Positions 45,867 through 56,707 of a stretch of DNA of 56,707 nucleotides are shown here, piece after piece. The position numbers and the translations under genes were made by a program. Origin of the DNA: Natronospirales bacterium (GTDB lineage Bacteria; Pseudomonadota; Gammaproteobacteria; Natronospirales; REEB76). Numbering within the stretch: position 1 is the stretch's first letter; every line of letters begins with the position of its first letter. The notes under the pieces were generated by a model. It was not told where the DNA came from. It was given only the letters and a program-made list of their open reading frames with translations, and did no database searches. Location of the stretch: contig JAKAXB010000003.1 of assembly GCA_021816765.1 (NCBI GenBank), forward strand, positions 164,074-220,780, in the 5' to 3' direction.

Positions 45867-46553
45867 TTACAGCGGGGACTTCGGCCACGCCACCCGTTCA
45901 CGGAGATACACGGGCACCGCCGCCTCCGCGTCCACGGCCTGCCCTCGCGCCAACGCCTGCCTGGCAAGGGCGGCAATATCGCGTGCCGCCGGTAACAGCG
46001 TGTCGTCCTGACCTGCCATTGCCGAACCCAGCCGCTCCATGAGTGTCTTCCCATGAACGCGTAAACCCGGGCCCGCTGCAAACCAGGGGCCCGCATCGGG
46101 CAAATGCATCCTTTCCGGCGTGACTAGCAACTCCTCCCCGCCAGCGCTGGTACTGCCTTCAGCAGATACCTTGTAGGTGCAGTAATACACTTCACCCATG
46201 CGCGCATCCAGACAGGACAGTATCCTGCTACTGTTATGCAGGCGGTGTGCGCCCACCGCCAGGGCCATGAGATCCGACACCGGTACCACAGGCAGATCCA
46301 CCCCAAAGGCCAGGCCCTGGATCATCGCTGCCGCCACGCGCACGCCTGTGAACCCTCCAGGACCTCGCCCGAAAGCCAGGGCATCGAGTTGCGCAAGCGA
46401 GACGCCCGCCGTGGAAAGCAAGGCTTCCACCATGGGTAAAATCAACTCCGCATGCGCACGCACCGCGGTTTGGCAGCGCTCCTCAATATGATCTTCAATC
46501 ATCAGTGCTGCTGAACAACGCTGCGTCGCGGTATCCACTGCCAGTATTTTCAT
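45867..46553 (-). CDS. tsaB: tRNA threonylcarbamoyladenosine biosynthesis protein TsaB
   Basis: Non-catalytic partner of TsaD in forming t6A37 on ANN-decoding tRNAs; also called YeaZ. 228 residues of the ASKHA fold. MKILAVDTATQRCSAAL at the N-terminus, HAELILPMVEALL, and GRGPGGFTGVRVAAAMIQGLAFG are the family motifs. The ATG at 46553 overlaps the stop of the upstream yoaA-like gene (4 bases), the same yoaA-tsaB pairing seen in E. coli. TsaD, TsaC and TsaE are not in the window. Confidence 0.95.
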   Translation of the reverse strand: MKILAVDTATQRCSAALMIEDHIEERCQTAVRAHAELILPMVEALLSTAGVSLAQLDALAFGRGPGGFTGVRVAAAMIQGLAFGVDLPVVPVSDLMALAVGAHRLHNSSRILSCLDARMGEVYYCTYKVSAEGSTSAGGEELLVTPERMHLPDAGPWFAAGPGLRVHGKTLMERLGSAMAGQDDTLLPAARDIAALARQALARGQAVDAEAAVPVYLRERVAWPKSPL

Positions 46554-48526
46554 ACCGGCACCTGCCGCACACAAATTGGCAGAATGCGCGCAAGAAACGT
46601 CTGCACTTCCTCCAATTTTCGGGTACGTTGCATGGGTGGCAAGCTCTCCAGGAACAACTTGCCGTAGCCCTTTTGTGTCACGCGCGGATCGCACAACATC
46701 AACACGCCGGTATCCGTATCGTCACGGATAAGTCTTCCCACGCCTTGCTTGAGAGCAAGGACTGCCTGTGGTAACTGATACTCGATGAATGGCTCATGTC
46801 CCTGACGTGCGAGCGCTGCGAGACGGGCCTTCATAACCGGATCACCTGGTGACGCGAACGGCAGCCGGTCGATCACCACCAGCGACAGTGCCGGTCCCTT
46901 TACGTCCACTCCTTCCCAGAAACTGGCCGTCCCCAGGAGTACCGCATTGCCCAGTTCGCGGAAGCGCTCCAACAAGCGCCGTCGGGGCGCTTCGCCCTGC
47001 ACCAGCAGGGGGAAATCCAACCGGCCCCGCAGTTGCTCCGCCGCTTCCTGCAAAGCCCGATGGCTGGTGAACAGCAGGAAAGCGCGACCACCGCTCGCAC
47101 GGATCACCGGCAATGCCGCCCGCACCACAGCCGAGGTATAGCCAGGTATATTCACATCAGGCAGGTTGGATGGAAGATAGAGCAACGCGTTATTCTCATA
47201 ATCGAACGGGCTGCCGAGCAAAAGCTCCTGTGTCTCCGCAAGTCCGAGCCGCTCGCGAAAGTGTGCAAACCCTCCGTTAATGGACAGGGTGGCGGATATA
47301 AAGATCCATGCACAATGCGTCTCCTGCATACACGCCTGAAAGCGATCAGCCGCATCCAGCGGTGTCAAGTTGAGGCTGAAGCCACGGCCATGTCGTTCGA
47401 CCCAGCGCACATGTTCCTCAGCCTGATCTTCCTCGACAAATTGCCCCAAACGCGTGGTGACGCCTGCCATCCGCTGCCGGCAGTTATCCATCCCCGTTGA
47501 GCGTTCAGCAAGCATTTCCAGGGCCTGCCCCAATTGCTGCAGAGTTGTATCCAGCGCATGTAGCGCCGTCTGCAGGCCTTGCTGAGGATGCAACTCTCGC
47601 CATTCAGTCCGGCTTGCCACCTGGCTGAAGCGCTGTTGCAGATCGGTAAGGGACGTTTCCACCTTTGCCAGTCCACTTTCAAAGCCTGGCGTGTCCGCGG
47701 CCGTCTCCCGGTATTCCCGCCGGGTATCTTGTACCAGTTCCTGGAGCTGCCGGCTGGAGAGGCCCATGCTGAAATGTTGTGTGGCGATATCCGGCAGCTG
47801 ATGAGCCTCATCCACAATGACCGCGTCCACGCCAGGCAGCAGCGCGCCGAAGCCTGCCTCCTTGAGCAGCATGTCGGCCAACAGCAAGTGATGGTTAACC
47901 ACCACAATATCCGCTGCCTGTGCACGACGGCGCGCCTCAATCACGAAACAACGCGCATATTCCGGGCATCCCTGGCCGAGACAATTCTCCGCTGTGGATG
48001 TGACTTGGGACCAGACAGGAGAATTTTCAGGTACAGCGCCAAGCTCTGCGATTTCACCGCTGTGTGTGTCACGCGCCCAATCCCCGATATGAGCGAGTTC
48101 GCGCACACTCCCCGTTTTATCGAACAGCCCTTCGTTGCTGTTCAGAATACGTCCGAGACGATGACGACAGAGATAATTGGATCGACCCTTGAGCAAGGTC
48201 ATTTTCACCGGCATACCCAGTACCTCGCGTACCGCCGGTAAGTCACGGTGGTATAACTGGTCCTGGAGTGCGCGCGTACCGGTGGAAATCAGGATGCGTT
48301 TCCCTGAAAGCAGCGCTGGTATGAGGTAGGCAAAGGTCTTGCCCGTGCCCGTACCCGCTTCCGCAATCAGAGTATCCTGCTTTGACAGTGCGCGTCCCAC
48401 TGCCGCGGCCAGCACCTGCTGTGTAGTGCGCGGAGCAAATCCAGGCAATTTCTCCGTCAATACGCCATCCGTACCCAGCAACTCGGAATAGTCAGAGGTG
48501 CTCCGGAGAGAACTCATGTCCTGCAT
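46550..48526 (-). CDS. yoaA: ATP-dependent helicase, YoaA/DinG family (XPD-like, Fe-S)
   Basis: Superfamily 2 DNA helicase of the XPD/DinG group. E. coli YoaA works with the clamp-loader subunit chi in repair at stalled forks. 658 residues. Walker A EAGTGTGKT ends at Lys63-Thr64. Four cysteines placed like the 4Fe-4S ligands of the family are Cys120, Cys182, Cys187 and Cys193. The Walker B is VDEAHQL (about 238-244). Late motifs VLLGTASFWEGVDVKG and QGVGRLIRDDTDTGVL match family motifs V and VI. YoaA rather than DinG is inferred from length and the following tsaB. Confidence 0.93.
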   Translation of the reverse strand: MQDMSSLRSTSDYSELLGTDGVLTEKLPGFAPRTTQQVLAAAVGRALSKQDTLIAEAGTGTGKTFAYLIPALLSGKRILISTGTRALQDQLYHRDLPAVREVLGMPVKMTLLKGRSNYLCRHRLGRILNSNEGLFDKTGSVRELAHIGDWARDTHSGEIAELGAVPENSPVWSQVTSTAENCLGQGCPEYARCFVIEARRRAQAADIVVVNHHLLLADMLLKEAGFGALLPGVDAVIVDEAHQLPDIATQHFSMGLSSRQLQELVQDTRREYRETAADTPGFESGLAKVETSLTDLQQRFSQVASRTEWRELHPQQGLQTALHALDTTLQQLGQALEMLAERSTGMDNCRQRMAGVTTRLGQFVEEDQAEEHVRWVERHGRGFSLNLTPLDAADRFQACMQETHCAWIFISATLSINGGFAHFRERLGLAETQELLLGSPFDYENNALLYLPSNLPDVNIPGYTSAVVRAALPVIRASGGRAFLLFTSHRALQEAAEQLRGRLDFPLLVQGEAPRRRLLERFRELGNAVLLGTASFWEGVDVKGPALSLVVIDRLPFASPGDPVMKARLAALARQGHEPFIEYQLPQAVLALKQGVGRLIRDDTDTGVLMLCDPRVTQKGYGKLFLESLPPMQRTRKLEEVQTFLARILPICVRQVPV

Positions 48527-48543
48527 GATTGAAGCACGGACTG

Positions 48544-49290
48544 TCAGGGTGCAAGGTCCAAGGGTGATTTCTTGAGTGCGTCCACCTGTGTCTGACTCAG
48601 CACACTTTGCTGGGCATCCATTTGCAGCACGGCGTTACGCAGTGCGAGTATCTTATCCCGGTTTTCCAGCTGCCTGAAGTCTCTTGGGTCAGCCGCTAAG
48701 GCGACTAATAACGCAATATCCTGCGGTTGCAGTTGCACAAATGGTTTCTTGAAATAAGCCAGGCTGGCTGCGGCAAATCCACTAATCAGCTGGCCGTTGC
48801 GTCGCCCCAAATTGACATCATTGATAAAGGCTTCAAGAAGATCAGTGCGGGAATAACGCAACTGCAAAGCCACTGACATTATGGCGGTGGAAGGAGCAGA
48901 GCCGTCTGGAAAATATATGCGCACCAAACGGCTGGTCAGTGGGCTAAGGGTTATATTGCTGTTATTGTAGAAGTTTGGATCCATGGCAGCCAATAATGTA
49001 TTCGGAAGAAATTGCGTGGTAGTCTGCAAATTCAAGGTCACGCGATTATGACCTAGCGCATTCGCTGTGCGATCAGCGGTAAAGCGGTTATCAACTTGGT
49101 GGGTCAGCCAGCCTGCATAGCCAAGTGCGGCTATGATGACCAGAACTATGGCCATCAACACAATAAGCACTCCATAGGATTTGCGTTTGGCAGTTGATTT
49201 TTTCGTGGCTCGCTCACGCCGCCGACGGATCACCCGCTGGGTGTCGTCACTGCGCCGCTTGAGAACCTCCCTGATGGTGTGCTCGCCCAT
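48544..49290 (-). CDS. PBP1B-like pseudo-glycosyltransferase (degenerate GT51), membrane-anchored
   Basis: A 248-residue protein. A strongly basic cytoplasmic N-terminus (RRSDDTQRVIRRRRERATKK) and one transmembrane helix (VLIVLMAIVLVIIAALGYAG, about 41-60) precede a periplasmic part that follows the GT51 domain of PBP1B. RYSRTDLLEAFINDVNLG, AAASLAYFKKPFVQLQPQDIALLVALAADP and a final QTQVDALKKSPLDL match the E. coli PBP1B segments by eye. Both catalytic glutamates are missing: the TEDRHFY-type motif reads AMDPNFY, and the second Glu falls in STAIMSVAL. The GGSTLTQQL helix is absent and there is no transpeptidase domain. It cannot be a normal murein synthase; a scaffold or regulator of PBP1B is inferred. 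It lies 17 bases upstream of yoaA. Confidence 0.72.
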   Translation of the reverse strand: MGEHTIREVLKRRSDDTQRVIRRRRERATKKSTAKRKSYGVLIVLMAIVLVIIAALGYAGWLTHQVDNRFTADRTANALGHNRVTLNLQTTTQFLPNTLLAAMDPNFYNNSNITLSPLTSRLVRIYFPDGSAPSTAIMSVALQLRYSRTDLLEAFINDVNLGRRNGQLISGFAAASLAYFKKPFVQLQPQDIALLVALAADPRDFRQLENRDKILALRNAVLQMDAQQSVLSQTQVDALKKSPLDLAP

Positions 49291-49486
49291 AACCAGCCCT
49301 TGTTATAGAATACCGAAAAGCATCTTGACAACATTCTAGCATCCATGCATGCCGCTCGCGTGCCATGACGCGACTGAATAGAGGCTTCCTTTACCCGCCG
49401 GATGTCGTGAGCGTTATAATATTGACTTTGTAGAGCTCGGGCGCACCCAACCTGCCTTATATCCACCCCCAACCCACGGGATAGCA

Positions 49487-51229
49487 ATGACCAATAATAG
49501 AGCGCTTTCTGACTGGGTCGTGCAGGTGGCACGCCACACCCAACCAGACCGCATACACTGGTGCGATGGTTCGGATACCGAGTATGGGGGCTTGGTGGAG
49601 GAAATGCTTGGGAGCGGCATGCTCCAGGAGCTCAACCAGAAAACCTACCCTAACTGCTATCTGCACCGCTCCAATCCGCAGGACGTGGCACGGGTGGAGC
49701 ATCTTACCTTCATCTGCAGCCACAGCAAAGACGATGCCGGTCCCAACAACCACTGGATAGACCCCGCCGAGGCTCATACCCGCATGCATGCCCTGTTCGA
49801 GGGTAGCATGCGCGGTCGAACGCTCTACGTGATTCCCTACTGCATGGGGCCAATTGATTCACCGCTGGCCCGCTGCGGGGTGGAACTCACCGATAGCCCC
49901 TATGTGGCAGCAAACATGCGCATCATGACACGTATGGGAGCTGCCGCGCTGACGCGCATCGAGCGCGAGGGCGAGTTTGTCAGAGGACTGCATTCTGTGG
50001 GCGATCTCAATCCGGAACGCCGTTTCATCATGCATTTTCCCGAAGAGCTCTCCATTCAAAGTTTTGGCTCCGGCTACGGCGGCAACGCGCTGCTCGGCAA
50101 GAAATGCCATGCGCTACGCATCGCCAGCTGGCAGGCACGGCAGGAAGGCTGGCTCGCCGAACACATGCTGATCGTCGGCATTGAAAATCCCCAGGGTGAA
50201 GTGCATTACGTGGCGGCGGCTTTCCCCTCCGCCTGCGGCAAAACCAATCTCGCCATGCTGGTCCCGCCGGAATCCCACAGGGGCTGGAAAATATGGACCA
50301 TCGGTGATGATATCTGCTGGATGCATCTCGGCAAGGATGGCAGGCTGTGGGCCATCAACCCGGAAGCGGGGTTTTTCGGCGTGCTGCCCGGTACCAACCC
50401 CAAGACTAACAAGAATGCTTACGACATGATCACTCACGACACGATTTTCACCAACGTGGCGCTGACCAAGGACAACCGGCCTTGGTGGGAAGGGCTGAAG
50501 GAAGGTTCCCCGGTAGTGGACTGGCAAGGTCGTCCATATGATGGCAGGAATGGCTCGGCCGCCCATCCGAACTCGCGCTTCACGGTATCGGCAAAGCAAA
50601 ATCCCAGCTATTCGCCGAAATCAGAGGATCCAAACGGTGTGCCCATCTCTGCCATCATCTTCGGTGGGCGACGCGCTGAAGTAGCCCCGCTGGTGTACGA
50701 GGCACGGAACTGGGCTCACGGCGTACTGATGGGCGCCAGTGTTGCCTCCGAAACCACCGCCGCTGCCACCGGCCAAGTAGGCGTGGTACGTCGCGACCCC
50801 ATGGCCATGAAACCCTTCTGTGGTTATAACTTCGCCGATTACTGGAACTACTGGTTATCATTTGCCGGAAAGTCAGCGAACTTGCCAAAAATTTTTCATG
50901 TGAACTGGTTCCGCCAGGACAAGGATGGCAAATTCATGTGGCCGGGGTTTGGTGAAAACCTGCGCGTGCTGCGCTGGATTCTTGACCGTTGCGATGGCAA
51001 GACGCAGGCTCAAGACACCGCTATCGGCTATGTACCGACAGGCGAGGTCATTGATACCCGTGGCCTGAACGTGGACGTCGAAACCATGCGGGCATTGCTG
51101 GAAGTGGACCCTGACAAGTGGCGGGAGGAAATGCAAACACTCCATGAGTATTTCCGTAGCTACGGAGAGCGCCTGCCATCAAAGCTGAGGGAGGAGCATC
51201 GGCAGGTGACTGCTGCTTTATCCCGATAA
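49487..51229 (+). CDS. pckG: Phosphoenolpyruvate carboxykinase (GTP)
   Basis: Interconverts oxaloacetate + GTP and PEP + CO2 + GDP, a gluconeogenic or anaplerotic step. 580 residues, typical of the GTP-dependent (eukaryote-like) class rather than the about 540-residue ATP class of enterobacteria. Motifs: MRGRTLYVIPYCMGP, GSGYGGNALLGKKCHALR, the kinase-1a loop AFPSACGKTNLAML with the reactive Cys, TIGDDICWMH (kinase 2) and NWFRQDKDGKFMWPGFGEN. A TATAAT at 49415-49420 lies 67 bases before the ATG, but its -35 partner is poor. It is flanked by genes on the opposite strand on both sides, so it is probably monocistronic. Confidence 0.97.
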   Translation: MTNNRALSDWVVQVARHTQPDRIHWCDGSDTEYGGLVEEMLGSGMLQELNQKTYPNCYLHRSNPQDVARVEHLTFICSHSKDDAGPNNHWIDPAEAHTRMHALFEGSMRGRTLYVIPYCMGPIDSPLARCGVELTDSPYVAANMRIMTRMGAAALTRIEREGEFVRGLHSVGDLNPERRFIMHFPEELSIQSFGSGYGGNALLGKKCHALRIASWQARQEGWLAEHMLIVGIENPQGEVHYVAAAFPSACGKTNLAMLVPPESHRGWKIWTIGDDICWMHLGKDGRLWAINPEAGFFGVLPGTNPKTNKNAYDMITHDTIFTNVALTKDNRPWWEGLKEGSPVVDWQGRPYDGRNGSAAHPNSRFTVSAKQNPSYSPKSEDPNGVPISAIIFGGRRAEVAPLVYEARNWAHGVLMGASVASETTAAATGQVGVVRRDPMAMKPFCGYNFADYWNYWLSFAGKSANLPKIFHVNWFRQDKDGKFMWPGFGENLRVLRWILDRCDGKTQAQDTAIGYVPTGEVIDTRGLNVDVETMRALLEVDPDKWREEMQTLHEYFRSYGERLPSKLREEHRQVTAALSR

Positions 51230-51294: not shown

Positions 51295-52200
51295 CTACTG
51301 ATGCTGCTCTGTCACTGTGTCACTGTGGTTACTGGCAAGCAATTCCGGCCGCACATAGGTACCGCGTGAGGAAACATCCATCAGGTTTACACGCCTGTTT
51401 TCGCTGATTTCAACGATCAGATGCTGCCTAGAAACATCAGTATGGCCATGATCCAACTGGATATCACACTGGGATGAGCGACCGATGCTGTTGCGTCCCA
51501 CCTTCAGCGGGTAAGCGCTGCCCGCCTTACTCTCCTTGAGCACAACAGCCTCGCCCCGTTTAGCTAGCCGGTAGCGGGTAGTCCCCAGAAAAACAGTGAT
51601 ATCCGGCTTTTCCTGCATATCCACCTCCACGATATGGCAATGTGGCAGGCGCGAATATTTTTCCAACAAAACATCTCCGGATAGCGCAGATATTTCGTCC
51701 TTCCCTGTGCGGCGGAGAGCAGCCGTCAAGGGAGGTTCATTGCTTCCGGATCGCTCCTGATGCTGGCGAAATCCGTCCAGAGCATCACGGCGCGTTTCCA
51801 GGAATCGCAAGTATTGTGCCAAGGCTTCACGCTGATAATTCTCGGCGATATGCTCCGCATTACCAAGGGTAAACAGGATGGATGGCCAGTCATGATCATC
51901 CGGAACCTTGCTGATATCAAGACGCCGCCAGAGATTGGCAACAGGTTCGCCACTCTCTCTCGCGCTCACCATGACATCCATGACATTCTGATGCGCTTGC
52001 AACATCTTGCGGGCTTCGCGTTGCAGAGCGCGCTCATCGAGTTGCGCGAATTCTTCCAGACGATAACCGGGTACGGTAAGGCGTGTACTCAGGAAACGCG
52101 CAAATTCCTCCTGAGAGACGAACACCTTGTTTACGCCACCGATTTGGATCTTCAAGGTTCGGCGGCCAATAGCAGCCACAATATGCTTAAGGGTGGACAT
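51295..52200 (-). CDS. FHA-domain protein downstream of the giant exoprotein
   Basis: A 301-residue protein without a signal peptide or transmembrane helix, so cytoplasmic. The N-terminal half (about 1-170) is helical, charged and unrecognised (e.g. QREARKMLQAHQNVMDVMVS). The C-terminal part (about 210-285) is a forkhead-associated domain: PLKVGRNSIGRSSQCDIQLD, DVSRQHLIVEI and MDVSSRGTYV supply the conserved Gly-Arg, Ser-Arg-x-His and Ser-x-Gly-Thr positions. FHA domains bind phosphothreonine peptides, so a signalling or secretion-control role is inferred. The ATG at 52200 or the GTG at 52212 follows the exoprotein stop (52217) within 4-16 bases, indicating one transcript. Confidence 0.85.
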   Translation of the reverse strand: MSTLKHIVAAIGRRTLKIQIGGVNKVFVSQEEFARFLSTRLTVPGYRLEEFAQLDERALQREARKMLQAHQNVMDVMVSARESGEPVANLWRRLDISKVPDDHDWPSILFTLGNAEHIAENYQREALAQYLRFLETRRDALDGFRQHQERSGSNEPPLTAALRRTGKDEISALSGDVLLEKYSRLPHCHIVEVDMQEKPDITVFLGTTRYRLAKRGEAVVLKESKAGSAYPLKVGRNSIGRSSQCDIQLDHGHTDVSRQHLIVEISENRRVNLMDVSSRGTYVRPELLASNHSDTVTEQHQ

Positions 52201-52216
52201 GAATACCGGCACTCAT

Positions 52217-55200
52217 TCAGGTCTTGCCCTGGACCATGGGACGTGTTTGCCTAGTCCGGTTCCCTGATGACACCCGCCCTTCCGTTGGTTGTGGGTGGCA
52301 CGATTTACTGTTGGGTCGCTCGCACTGATCCATTGGCAGCATGATACCGGACCCGAAGACATCATATAGGGAAATATTCTGGAAAAGTGACACATCGATA
52401 AAACCACCCTGCAACAGCCCTCCGGTTTGAGCAAGTGCCGCAATCTGCTGGCCAATGCTGGTGACTTGGCTGTTAGCCTGTACAAAAAGTCCCAGTTGGG
52501 CGGCGATGGTATCGGCAATTACCGCTGTCGGACCGATCACCACCGGCAGGGTCGGCGGCGAAAGGAATGACTGTATTGCGCCCGTGGCAATCTGCACCTG
52601 AGCAACACTGCTCGGCACCTGGACGTTAAGTTCCTGGCCCAGCTGGCCGATTTGGCCGCCGGATACCAGCACCACCGTATTCGCGTTGATGAGTGTCTGC
52701 GGAGCGCCCGGGTTCTGCATCACACTGTTCTGGCTGCCTGCCACCAGAGTCACGGAATTGGCCGTAAGTGTGCCGCTGTCGAGGGATAGATTGCCCAGGC
52801 CGACCAGTACCAGTGATGCTGAATTGCCAAGCGTCAAACTGCCATTCACCGTAACATTGCCGGCCGCGACCGGCACGCTGATACCCACACCGCCGTTGGG
52901 TGCCGGTCCGGCGCCGATGTACAGAGCACCGTCATAGCCATCCATGGCGATATTGTTCAGCGTGAGACCGCTGCCACTGCCTCCGATATTGACTGCCAAG
53001 CCGTTTGTTTCCGGGAGAAGCGTGAGCGTGGTGTTGCCCCGCACCGAGCTGGCGCCGCCATCAAAACCAATCGTGTTGGCCTGTATGGTCGAGGCTGAAG
53101 TGATGTCCAGTCTGCCGCCGAAATTGATGGCGCCAGTCTTGCTGTTCAGTACACCGGCCAGGCTGGCGGCGCCGGATTGATAATTCTGGTTCCCTGAAGT
53201 GGTCACGGAACCCAGAGTAACCGCAGCACTATTCACCGTGAGGGAGGCAAGCGGCGTACTACCACCGACGACACCACCCAATGTTACCGGGCCGGATGTA
53301 TCCATAAGCGTCAGTGCGTGTGCGCCATCCACCGTACCGCTGATATTTATGCCGCCACCGCCGGCAGCGCTCAGCGCTGCGCCGGAAATCAGCGCCAAAT
53401 TGCCGTTCACCGTTACTCCGCCATTTACTGTGCTGGATAGGTTACCGGCAAGCTGCACATTGCCGGTATAGGATTGGACCGTGCTGGTGGTGACATTGCC
53501 CAGTGCAATCGTGCCGCCGTTGATCGTGAGACTCGCCAGCGGCGTGATCTGGCCAACCGGTGAAAGAATGACATTACCGCTGCCACTGTTGATGGCAAGA
53601 GCCTGGCTGCCGGAGGTAAGACCATTGATACCGGTTGCATGGGAAAAATCCACAGTAGTATTGGCGGTAATGACACTGACGCTCGCTCCAACAATGGCAA
53701 TACTGCCCGTTATACCACTGGTCAATAGACTGTTCGCCGAGATGCCATTACCCAGCGACAACGTGCCACTGGCCTGCAGTATCAGACTACCCAGATTACT
53801 CACAGCTTGCAGGTTGATATTCCCGACGCCGCTGTTCAGGGTCAGCGACGACGCCCCGCCGGATCCTGTAATACCCTGATCGAAGATGATGGCGCCGCTG
53901 CCGGTGGCGATGCTGGCGGTTGTTCCACTGCCTACAGCCGTCGGTGAAGCTAACTGCACACTGCCGCCATTGCTGGTGACGTTGCTGTCGAGTACTACCG
54001 GACCTGCGCCGGTCTGGGCAAGCGCACCATTCAGGTTAACCGGTCCCGCGATCATGAAGGTGCCACCGTTCTGGATGGTGAGCGTGCCACGTGTGGTATT
54101 GAATCCTTGCAGGGTAATATTTCCCGGTGTCTGCAATGTGGTACCGCCGCTGGCGCCACTGGTCACGCCGGTGAAAGTGATGTCACCGCTGGCGGCGGTG
54201 ACGGTAACCATGCTGCCGGCGAGATTGCCGCCGGTATTGCCGGTTACACCGGTGCCGCCCGTGAGGGACAGGATGCCTGTACCGGAACTCACTGTGCTGT
54301 CAAGATTCAGCTGACCCGCCGCAACCAGGCTCACATCGCTGCCGCCCCCGGCAGCAATAGTGCCTGCAGTGGTGATATCCCCACTGCTGGTGGTGAGTGT
54401 GATATTGCCACCGCTGGTTACCGGTCCATTAGCAATCAGGACGCCAGCAGAGGTGATGTAAACGGCACCATTATTGGTACTGACGGCACCCAGCGTGAGT
54501 GCGCCCGTATTGCTGATATTGATATCACCAACGCCGCTTACTGCGGCGCTCAGGTTAGTGGTAACGGTCTTGAGCAATGCCGCCGCTGTACCAATACCCG
54601 AAACGGCTGTAAGGTTGACTGCGCCGGCTGCAACGCTCTGGCCGGCGGTGTCCGTGATGGCGCCGCCGCTTGCGAGCGTCAGCGTACCGTTGCCCAAACT
54701 GATGCCTTGCAGGTTAACGCTACCCACCGTATTTATGAAGGCATTGCCATTGGAAGCGGCGATTTGCAGATTGCCGAGATTGCCAAGCAGCGGCTTGCTG
54801 GCGGAGCCGATGCTGGTGGCGCCGGAGATGGCCAAGGTACCCGCAGTCACGGTGGCGCCCGCATTGTCTGCGATGGTTCCCACATTATTGATGGCCAGGG
54901 TGGAGGCTGGAGCGATAAAGGAACCCACGATGTTGACGGTGTCTGCACCACCACCGCCGTTGATGGAACCGCTCACACCGGCGCTCAGACTGAAGGTATC
55001 CGCGCCGGTACCGCCGCTCAGAATCTGGAAGTCACTGAAGGCAAGTGCGGCATCCAGGGTGCCTGCATTACTGCCAGTCACATTCCAGATATTCGTGCTA
55101 TTCGGACCCGCAAGACTATTCGGCAACCCCGCCGCTCCATTCGCACCTACTATATCGGTGATATTATCAAAGCCTCCGGTAATGCTCGCCTCCGTGCCTT

Positions 55201-56707
55201 GCATTCCATCCGCCGTACCTGCTCCCGTGATGGTCACATTCCGCGCCGTCGTGTAAGCGCTCCAGTCAATGGTGTCATTACCGGAAGTCACTCCACCACC
55301 ATTGAGGCTGCCGCTCAAGCTTGCGCCATTGGCGAAGATAAAATTGTCCGTACCCGTACCGCCGATCAGGTTACCAATGTTCGTGAACGTGCCACCCAGA
55401 CCCGTCACCGTACCCTGGTTGGCACCGGTGACGCTCCAGGTATTGGCGCTGTTGTTCCCCTGCAGGCTGTTTCCCGTCGCCGCCCCGCTGCCGCCATTGA
55501 TATTGCCCGACAGGCTGCTGCTACCGGTAAATAGGAAGCTGTTGCTGCCGCTGCCGCCCATCAGGCTTTCGATGCTGCTGAAGTTGAAGCCATCTACATT
55601 GCCGGCATTGGTACCGTTGATCGTCCAGGTGTTCGCCGTGTTCGGTCCGGTGAGCATGTCGCTGCCCGCACTGCCCACCAGCGTACCAATGCCGCTGAAC
55701 GTCCCGCCGATCTGCGAGCCCGTGCCGCTGCTGCTGGAGCTCAAGGTCACGTTCACCGGTCCGGCGAGTGCCGCATAGTTCAGGGTGTTGCTGCCACTGC
55801 CGCCATTCACGTTGCCGCTTAGTGAGCCACTGCCCTGGAAAACGAAGCCGTCGTTGCCCGCTCCACCCATCAGGTTCTGCACATTGCTAAACGCCCCCAC
55901 CAGCGTCGTCGCTCCGCTTGTCACCATGCCGCTGTTGCTGCCGGTAATGTTGAACGTGTCTCCGCTGTTATCCCCCGTCAGCGTGTCGTTCCCGCCTCCG
56001 CCAGTAATACTGCCAATACTGCCGCCAGCCAACACAAAATTATCCGCACCGCTGCCGCCCACCAGGTTCTGGAAGCTGCCGAAGTTCAGCACCTGGGCGG
56101 AACCCGTATCCTGCAGCGTACCGCCGTTCGCCACGGTGAGCGTGTACGTCGCCCCGCTGGCATCCCCGGTCAGCGTATTGGTCGCTGTCGCCGATCCCGT
56201 CAGCGTCCCCATGTTGCTGAACCCGCTGATCCCGGTTGCCGTCCCGTTGTACCCCGCACTCCCCGGACCCGTGAGGCTCACGTTGGTCGCCGTCGTGTAG
56301 GCGCTTAAGTTCAAGCTGTTGCCGCCCGCGCCCCCGTTTACCAAGGTCTCCGTAGCACCATTACTGAATGTGAAACTGTCGTTCCCCGTCCCGCCCGTCA
56401 GGTTCTGGATGTTCGCGAACGTGCCGCCGATCCCCGTCAGCGTACCCGTGTTGGCTCCGGTGACGGTCCAGGTGTTCGCCACGTTGTCCCCCATCAGGGT
56501 GTTGATCCCGGCTCCGCCGTTGATCGAACCACTCAGCGTGCCCCCCGCAAGTGTGAAGCTGTCATTGCCCGTCCCGCCCATCAGGTCGGCAAAGTTACTG
56601 AAGATCAGGCCCTGTCCGTCGTTGTATGTCCCGCCATTCGTAGCGCTGATCGTCCACAGGTTGTTGGTCGCCTCGCCGCTGATCAGCGTGTTCGTCACCC
56701 CCGTACC
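52217..56707 (-). CDS. Giant repetitive exoprotein, filamentous-haemagglutinin/beta-helix type (N-terminus outside window)
   Basis: The frame is open from the right edge to the stop at 52217: 1496 residues visible, with the N-terminus missing, so signal peptide and any secretion domain cannot be checked. Composition is extreme: Gly, Ser, Thr, Ala, Asn and Val dominate, with few Lys, Cys or aromatic residues. The first ~590 residues are alternating repeats with GGTGNDSF and VTGANTG units; the next ~750 are less regular beta-helix-like segments (LTLASGGAITDTAG style) as in two-partner-secretion and autotransporter passengers. It ends LFQNISLYDVFGSG and a short polar tail containing two Cys. No barrel is present, so a separate exporter is expected. 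Probable role: surface adhesin or matrix fibre (inferred). Confidence 0.85.
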   Translation of the reverse strand, partial: GTGVTNTLISGEATNNLWTISATNGGTYNDGQGLIFSNFADLMGGTGNDSFTLAGGTLSGSINGGAGINTLMGDNVANTWTVTGANTGTLTGIGGTFANIQNLTGGTGNDSFTFSNGATETLVNGGAGGNSLNLSAYTTATNVSLTGPGSAGYNGTATGISGFSNMGTLTGSATATNTLTGDASGATYTLTVANGGTLQDTGSAQVLNFGSFQNLVGGSGADNFVLAGGSIGSITGGGGNDTLTGDNSGDTFNITGSNSGMVTSGATTLVGAFSNVQNLMGGAGNDGFVFQGSGSLSGNVNGGSGSNTLNYAALAGPVNVTLSSSSSGTGSQIGGTFSGIGTLVGSAGSDMLTGPNTANTWTINGTNAGNVDGFNFSSIESLMGGSGSNSFLFTGSSSLSGNINGGSGAATGNSLQGNNSANTWSVTGANQGTVTGLGGTFTNIGNLIGGTGTDNFIFANGASLSGSLNGGGVTSGNDTIDWSAYTTARNVTITGAGTADGMQGTEASITGGFDNITDIVGANGAAGLPNSLAGPNSTNIWNVTGSNAGTLDAALAFSDFQILSGGTGADTFSLSAGVSGSINGGGGADTVNIVGSFIAPASTLAINNVGTIADNAGATVTAGTLAISGATSIGSASKPLLGNLGNLQIAASNGNAFINTVGSVNLQGISLGNGTLTLASGGAITDTAGQSVAAGAVNLTAVSGIGTAAALLKTVTTNLSAAVSGVGDINISNTGALTLGAVSTNNGAVYITSAGVLIANGPVTSGGNITLTTSSGDITTAGTIAAGGGSDVSLVAAGQLNLDSTVSSGTGILSLTGGTGVTGNTGGNLAGSMVTVTAASGDITFTGVTSGASGGTTLQTPGNITLQGFNTTRGTLTIQNGGTFMIAGPVNLNGALAQTGAGPVVLDSNVTSNGGSVQLASPTAVGSGTTASIATGSGAIIFDQGITGSGGASSLTLNSGVGNINLQAVSNLGSLILQASGTLSLGNGISANSLLTSGITGSIAIVGASVSVITANTTVDFSHATGINGLTSGSQALAINSGSGNVILSPVGQITPLASLTINGGTIALGNVTTSTVQSYTGNVQLAGNLSSTVNGGVTVNGNLALISGAALSAAGGGGINISGTVDGAHALTLMDTSGPVTLGGVVGGSTPLASLTVNSAAVTLGSVTTSGNQNYQSGAASLAGVLNSKTGAINFGGRLDITSASTIQANTIGFDGGASSVRGNTTLTLLPETNGLAVNIGGSGSGLTLNNIAMDGYDGALYIGAGPAPNGGVGISVPVAAGNVTVNGSLTLGNSASLVLVGLGNLSLDSGTLTANSVTLVAGSQNSVMQNPGAPQTLINANTVVLVSGGQIGQLGQELNVQVPSSVAQVQIATGAIQSFLSPPTLPVVIGPTAVIADTIAAQLGLFVQANSQVTSIGQQIAALAQTGGLLQGGFIDVSLFQNISLYDVFGSGIMLPMDQCERPNSKSCHPQPTEGRVSSGNRTRQTRPMVQGKT
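54930..56707 (-). repeat. Alternating protein-coding repeats in the giant exoprotein
   Basis: About ten units. Type A (about 60-65 residues) has the pattern NTWxVTGxNxGTLxG, GGTFxNIxNLxGGTGNDSF, then LSGxxNGGxG. Type B (about 45-55 residues) has LNLSAYTTAxNVxLTGxG, GxxGFxNIxxLxGS. Units end in N-T-L or D-T-L joints. The repeats are diverged at DNA level but in register. The pattern also leaves long stop-free frames on the opposite strand, which are not genes. Confidence 0.7.

Follow-up and report, generated by a model that had tools for sequence, protein, structure and literature searches.

In Escherichia coli, PBP1B (mrcB/ponB; class A PBP, TIGR02071) consists of a basic cytoplasmic tail, a single membrane helix and a periplasmic GT51 domain, followed by a transpeptidase. 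Glu233 is the key catalytic glutamate of the GT51 domain and its mutation blocks glycosyltransferase activity (PMC4632607); E290 is also named as catalytic (PMC7400108). The flap and motifs I-III make up the jaw that engages lipid II, with the flap, the His/Gly of motif I, T267 and Q271 and the RK of motif III forming the lipid II site (PMC6053601). The cytoplasmic N-terminus recruits E. coli PBP1b to the division site, probably via FtsA, and extended N-termini of class A PBPs mediate localisation in Firmicutes as well; the FtsA-binding peptide of PBP1b is found in Enterobacteriaceae only (PMC13423804). Inactive relatives of wall enzymes are known from the hydrolases: DipM of the LytM family is a conserved inactive homologue that matters for wall remodelling (PMC6373972).

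Here we describe a shrunken PBP1B, termed pseudo-PBP1B, encoded in a stretch of 56,707 nucleotides (the window) from an uncultured Natronospirales bacterium. The best profile match is PBP1B, the topology is the same, and a full-length homologue occupies the same slot in a sister family. Unlike E. coli PBP1B (~790-840 aa), the protein comprises only 248 aa without UB2H, transpeptidase domain, catalytic Glu, flap or motif III RK, and its genome lacks LpoB. The monofunctional GT51 enzyme MtgA is similar in size and likewise has a membrane helix and a GT51 domain but no transpeptidase; it retains the catalytic motifs (G[GA]ST[IL]TQQ), however, which pseudo-PBP1B does not. Moreover, the same genome has a separate MtgA, the match of pseudo-PBP1B to the MtgA model is weak (4e-5), and its place in the tree is with PBP1B. 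DipM offers a precedent for how a dead wall-enzyme homologue may work, although the fold is unrelated and DipM derives from a hydrolase, pseudo-PBP1B from a synthase.

The locus and its relatives

The features of the locus are summarised in Table 1. The frame starts with an ATG preceded by a Shine-Dalgarno-like AAGGG and encodes 248 aa plus stop with no internal stops, so that the preliminary description had both coordinates and frame right. An element TGnTA(G/A)AAT is found upstream of the ATG at about equal distance in all eight orthologues; a strict promoter scan did not report the one in the window. Beyond pckG, an FHA-domain-like ORF (51295-52212, minus strand) is followed by a very long repetitive ORF (52217-56698, minus strand; about 1,500 aa or more) with Gly/Asn/Thr-rich, adhesin-like repeats, reaching near the window end.

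Table 1. Features of the pseudo-PBP1B locus (window coordinates).
Feature	Position	Strand	Basis or remark
Shrunken pseudo-PBP1B gene	48544..49290	-	Open frame, GT51/PBP1B homology, orthologues, purifying selection
yoaA-type helicase gene	46550..48526	-	Directly downstream neighbour, same strand; conserved synteny
pckG-type GTP-dependent PEP carboxykinase gene	49487..51229	+	Divergent neighbour; synteny in genus and sister family
Probable promoter, extended -10 TGCTAGAAT	49333..49341	-	51-43 bases 5' of the pseudo-PBP1B ATG
Basic cytoplasmic tail, residues 1-37 (MGEHTIREVLKRRSDDTQRVIRRRR...)	49180..49290	-	83% mean identity, 8 orthologues
Single transmembrane helix, about residues 38-62	49105..49179	-	Hydrophobic stretch
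Short periplasmic linker, residues 63-90	49021..49104	-	Replaces UB2H position of PBP1B; G014/G016 alignment
Degenerate N-terminal GT51 part, residues 91-135	48886..49020	-	hhalign and residue table
Met103 codon, equivalent of catalytic Glu233	48982..48984	-	M/T/V in 8/8 orthologues
Deletion junction of the 20-residue jaw flap, residues 115/116	48945..48946	-	Identical gap in 8/8 orthologues
Thr135 codon, equivalent of catalytic Glu290	48886..48888	-	Preceding motif III RK deleted
Preserved C-terminal GT51 part, residues 136-223, motif IV region YFKKPFVQLQPQDIALLVALA	48622..48885	-	Pfam Transgly match
C-terminal end, residues 224-248	48547..48621	-	Stops where the PBP1B GT-to-TP linker begins

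The genus consists of uncultured bacteria, and the short form is present in 8 of its 11 genomes in full synteny, except that the contig of G005 ends before pckG. Apart from the window's own genome, 7 of the 10 others carry an orthologue with 53-85% identity and an open frame. The order is pckG (divergent), pseudo-PBP1B, yoaA and tsaB, followed by phoB and phoR where the contig extends; the neighbourhood of yoaA-tsaB noticed earlier is thus conserved across the eight carriers. Agreement of eight separate assemblies rules out an assembly error as the source of the short form.

No orthologue is found in three members of the genus (G006, G007, G009) nor in the lone genome of the sister genus (G011), and the gene is therefore not essential to the group. 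Searches with the window's proteins recovered neither yoaA nor pckG in these four genomes, hence the whole neighbourhood is missing or unassembled there. In G011, which is 100% complete, tsaB is not recognisable with this query either, and the pckG-yoaA-tsaB neighbourhood seems to be lost or strongly diverged.

Within the order, two genomes from a sister family (G014 and G016) have a full-length PBP1B of 790 and 783 aa in the slot pckG, mrcB, yoaA, tsaB, and these proteins have the tail motif MGERTV.E.LKRRSD.T in common with pseudo-PBP1B. In families f2 and f3 pckG adjoins yoaA, the gap between the matches being too small for a PBP1B, and PBP1A alone was found, no PBP1B. Based on the synteny with G014 and G016, the shared tail and the tree position (see below), pseudo-PBP1B is PBP1B (mrcB) remodelled in place to about one third of its size.

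A profile search of 369 genomes of the class matched 217 of them at E <= 1e-10. Among the matches listed, which do not extend to the weakest ones, no frame other than the window's own comes close to 250 aa; all others listed are either PBP1Bs of full length or frames measuring 385-715 aa. One PBP1B match (G335:C1:1608031-1608516, minus strand) contains an internal TGA and TAA and is possibly a true PBP1B pseudogene.

Homology and catalytic residues

Pfam Transgly (PF00912) matches residues 136-223 of pseudo-PBP1B along profile positions 92-175 (2.7e-15; 56.7 bits, cut-off 27). Among the NCBIfam models PBP_1b ranks first (1.6e-20), followed by PBP_1a_fam (6e-15) and, far behind, the monofunctional enzyme. 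A PDB search returned E. coli PBP1B entries as best matches (3e-13). The preliminary description had proposed a profile-profile comparison with GT51. With hhalign, the profile of the eight orthologues aligns to that of 22 full-length PBP1Bs drawn from the class over residues 81-248 (probability 99.9%, E 2e-31). By Pfam score and hhalign, pseudo-PBP1B thus belongs to GT51 by descent. As a PBP1B equivalog it falls far short of TIGR02071 (72.9 bits against 717.75; profile positions 225-335 of 729), showing neither the UB2H nor the transpeptidase domain, and it differs from MtgA, a monofunctional GT51 with intact catalytic motifs. Orthology to the PBP1B lineage is nonetheless given by the genomic slot of the relatives' PBP1B together with the GT-domain tree, in which the eight orthologues form one clade inside PBP1B. 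The stem of this clade measures 1.22 changes per site and its inner branches are short, a pattern of rapid change and then constraint.

Structure prediction from a 5-sequence alignment yielded models of 247 and 159 residues with mean pLDDT of 45 and 49, which is too low for a superposition; the most confident block is the helix of residues 38-77. Foldseek with the weak 159-residue model gave significant matches to GT51 enzymes only, E. coli PBP1B first, which lends support to the homology but is partly sequence-driven.

The layout largely agrees with the preliminary description. The PBP1B-type basic tail and the single membrane helix are both present, the tail being common to the sister-family PBP1B. 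The protein ends at the GT domain, its alignment with PBP1B stopping at L(G/D)xxP, and there is no transpeptidase match at the locus. UB2H is not seen either: in the alignment with the PBP1B of G014 and G016 the domain and its linkers are missing. Two statements have to be refined. The GT51 fold had been described as its C-terminal half only; that part is indeed preserved, with 33 of 88 columns of residues 136-223 invariant among the eight orthologues, but a degenerate N-terminal part is present as well. It contains a motif I of the form xDPNFY, where LLAAMDPNFY corresponds to LLATEDRHFY of PBP1B, and a motif II. The GGSTLTQQ helix had been called absent; GGST is shrunk to SP, but the motif II helix itself survives in degenerate form (SPLTSRLVRIYF, corresponding to STLTQQLVKNLFL).

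For the catalytic residues we counted from E. coli Glu233 and compared the eight orthologues with the full-length PBP1Bs, for which 21 or 22 rows were readable. E290 thereby falls into motif III (RKANE) and is not the Glu of motif IV (NEVYLG, D/E in pseudo-PBP1B). E233, H240, T267, Q271, R286-K287 and E290 are retained in all readable full-length PBP1Bs (E233 in 22 of 22). All eight orthologues have M/T/V for E233, a replaced H240, P for T267, R or H for Q271 and T/I/V/A for E290; R286-K287 are deleted. Both catalytic Glu are hence replaced throughout, as was noticed for the window protein (M103 and T135). Moreover, 20 residues between motifs I and II and 5 at motif III are deleted at identical places in all eight. 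None of the features of an active GT51 glycosyltransferase (E233, E290, GGSTxTQQ, RKxxE) is left intact. Since catalytic residues, flap and motif III RK are lost in every orthologue, pseudo-PBP1B would, by strong inference, be unable to polymerise lipid II. Together with the synteny to full-length PBP1B, this loss bears out the designation as a PBP1B-type pseudo-glycosyltransferase.

Retained activity at a relocated site, as a polymerase or a glycan-cleaving enzyme, might be considered given the lysozyme-like fold, the equivalents of Asp234 and Phe237 that are kept in all eight orthologues and the uniform change of K274 to Arg. We regard this as highly improbable: the protein has lost both Glu233, the known catalytic base, and Glu290, and its periplasmic part contains no invariant Glu in the 8-sequence alignment. 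Slightly less remote, yet still improbable, is a decoy or sensor whose head still binds a ligand (lipid II, a glycan strand or a moenomycin-like compound) but does not turn it over. In favour of such binding, the protein descends from the fold of a lipid II polymerase and has kept the motif IV/V part, but the elements that form the lipid II site of the jaw (flap, His/Gly of motif I, T267/Q271 and motif III RK) are lost or replaced in all eight. The decoy for murein synthesis considered in the preliminary description therefore has weak structural backing, the jaw and flap that engage lipid II being excised.

Selection and conservation pattern

dN/dS was calculated by Nei-Gojobori for closely related pairs. 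For pseudo-PBP1B it amounts to 0.19 (G000/G001), 0.13 (G008/G010) and 0.23-0.28 (within G002/G003/G005), comparable with the flanking housekeeping genes yoaA (0.12-0.14) and tsaB (0.13-0.25). With all eight frames open, these values exclude decay of a pseudogene and point to a conserved pseudoenzyme. The earlier impression of a gene that is selected rather than decaying, for which dN/dS across relatives had been named as a check, is thus substantiated, also by the synteny with full-length PBP1B. We consider it very probable that pseudo-PBP1B is catalytically dead yet functional.

The selection also bears on the position of the gene. In every carrier pseudo-PBP1B lies directly 5' of yoaA and shares its strand; within the genus, yoaA was found in these eight genomes and in no others. 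The gene could accordingly be a vestige that leads the yoaA-tsaB operon by translation coupling or as a leader, its protein being without function. Purifying selection at the protein level makes this improbable as well, and so does the arrangement in f2 and f3, where the short gap between pckG and yoaA leaves too little room for a PBP1B.

Conservation is distributed unevenly along the protein. Residues 1-26 of the tail are its best-preserved ancestral segment: they share 63% identity with the PBP1Bs of the sister family, as much as the PBP1Bs of G014 and G016 share with each other there (62%). A tail-only search of the order gave convincing matches solely to pseudo-PBP1B and the sister-family PBP1B. 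In the GT part, identity to the sister-family PBP1Bs drops to 26-38%, compared to 69-82% within the intact pair G014/G016, and amounts to 64-68% among the eight orthologues. The tail is under retained ancestral constraint and the head now under a different one.

This pattern could also mean that tail and membrane helix do the work, e.g. by titrating a cytoskeletal partner or by competition for it, and that the GT51 remnant is a stable cap. In favour, the first 26 residues are the sole part as similar to active PBP1Bs as those are mutually. However, the GT-like part is itself constrained, with 22 of 45 columns invariant in its N-terminal portion besides those of the C-terminal one, and its pN/pS is mostly 0.15-0.4, where a mere cap would drift faster. 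A function of the tail on its own therefore seems unlikely, though less so than the alternatives above.

Other cell-wall genes and a putative adaptor role

The window's genome (2.58 Mb, 99% complete) contains three GT51 matches only, namely PBP1A (806 aa), MtgA (255 aa) and pseudo-PBP1B, and its transpeptidase domains belong to PBP1A and one PBP2-like protein. A split gene with its transpeptidase elsewhere is ruled out, as there is no stray PBP1B-type transpeptidase in the genome. G000 and G001 each have two proteins with a transpeptidase domain (PBP1A and PBP2-like); the FtsI-type match of most relatives is missing in both, which may be a true absence or a gap common to the two assemblies. 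MtgA occurs in family f1 only, and the PBP1B-bearing G014 and G016 have PBP1A and PBP1B without MtgA. Hence MtgA may have taken over the lost polymerase capacity.

UB2H reaches PBP1B strength in G014 and G016 only; weak matches elsewhere are mostly proteins of ~1,170 aa, which by their length we take to be Mfd. LpoB is found at full strength in f4, f3, G006, G007 and G011, whereas the Pfam model and a direct protein search detected none in the eight carriers, a few of which show weak LpoB sub-matches in frames of ~655 aa. Within the genus LpoB and pseudo-PBP1B are thus mutually exclusive. In f3, G006, G007 and G011 LpoB is present and no PBP1B was found, so LpoB must have another partner there. 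Binding of LpoB, also as a decoy, had been envisaged for pseudo-PBP1B; with the UB2H docking domain deleted and LpoB absent from all carriers but present in non-carrier relatives, this is not tenable, and LpoB was discarded as a partner in the carrier genomes.

We infer a non-enzymatic role in murein synthesis and, by a modest preference, a non-catalytic, membrane-tethered adaptor. PBP1B has here lost UB2H, the transpeptidase domain, the flap that grips lipid II and every known GT51 catalytic residue, but selection maintains what is left. In such a scenario its conserved cytoplasmic tail would preserve the localisation or partner contact that PBP1B once had. The GT51 head, degenerate and reorganised around the preserved motif IV/V part, would serve as docking surface for a periplasmic cell-wall protein, with PBP1A, MtgA or a division or elongation SEDS/PBP pair as candidates. 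Itself inactive, the adaptor could thereby position or tune an active synthase. By analogy to E. coli, FtsA may be one partner of the tail; as the tail sequence differs from the enterobacterial FtsA-binding peptide, a different partner may apply. The weak fold models (mean pLDDT 45-49) count against the adaptor, as does the lack of the gene in three members of the genus and in the sister genus. Tentatively, pseudo-PBP1B might be a dedicated pseudo-class A PBP that arose by stepwise loss of UB2H, flap, transpeptidase and LpoB and serves as spatial adaptor, recruiting or regulating the synthases that remain (PBP1A, MtgA or FtsW/FtsI).

To our knowledge, pseudo-PBP1B would then be the first pseudoenzyme in family GT51 that is conserved. 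In the open-access literature we found no description of a conserved inactive GT51 protein or a dead class A PBP, which is a weak negative. Monofunctional GT51s that are active, such as MtgA, are known already, and so are inactive relatives of wall hydrolases such as DipM; new, as far as this weak negative evidence goes, is a conserved dead class A PBP.

Evolution would here have separated the targeting tail and the GT-fold contacts of PBP1B from catalysis, with PBP1A and MtgA remaining, and the absence of LpoB from the same genomes suggests that the activation pathway was dismantled too. Pseudo-PBP1B would thus represent a minimal natural construct for the non-catalytic roles of class A PBPs, addressing the question how far PBP1B acts in cells as an enzyme and how far as a scaffold.
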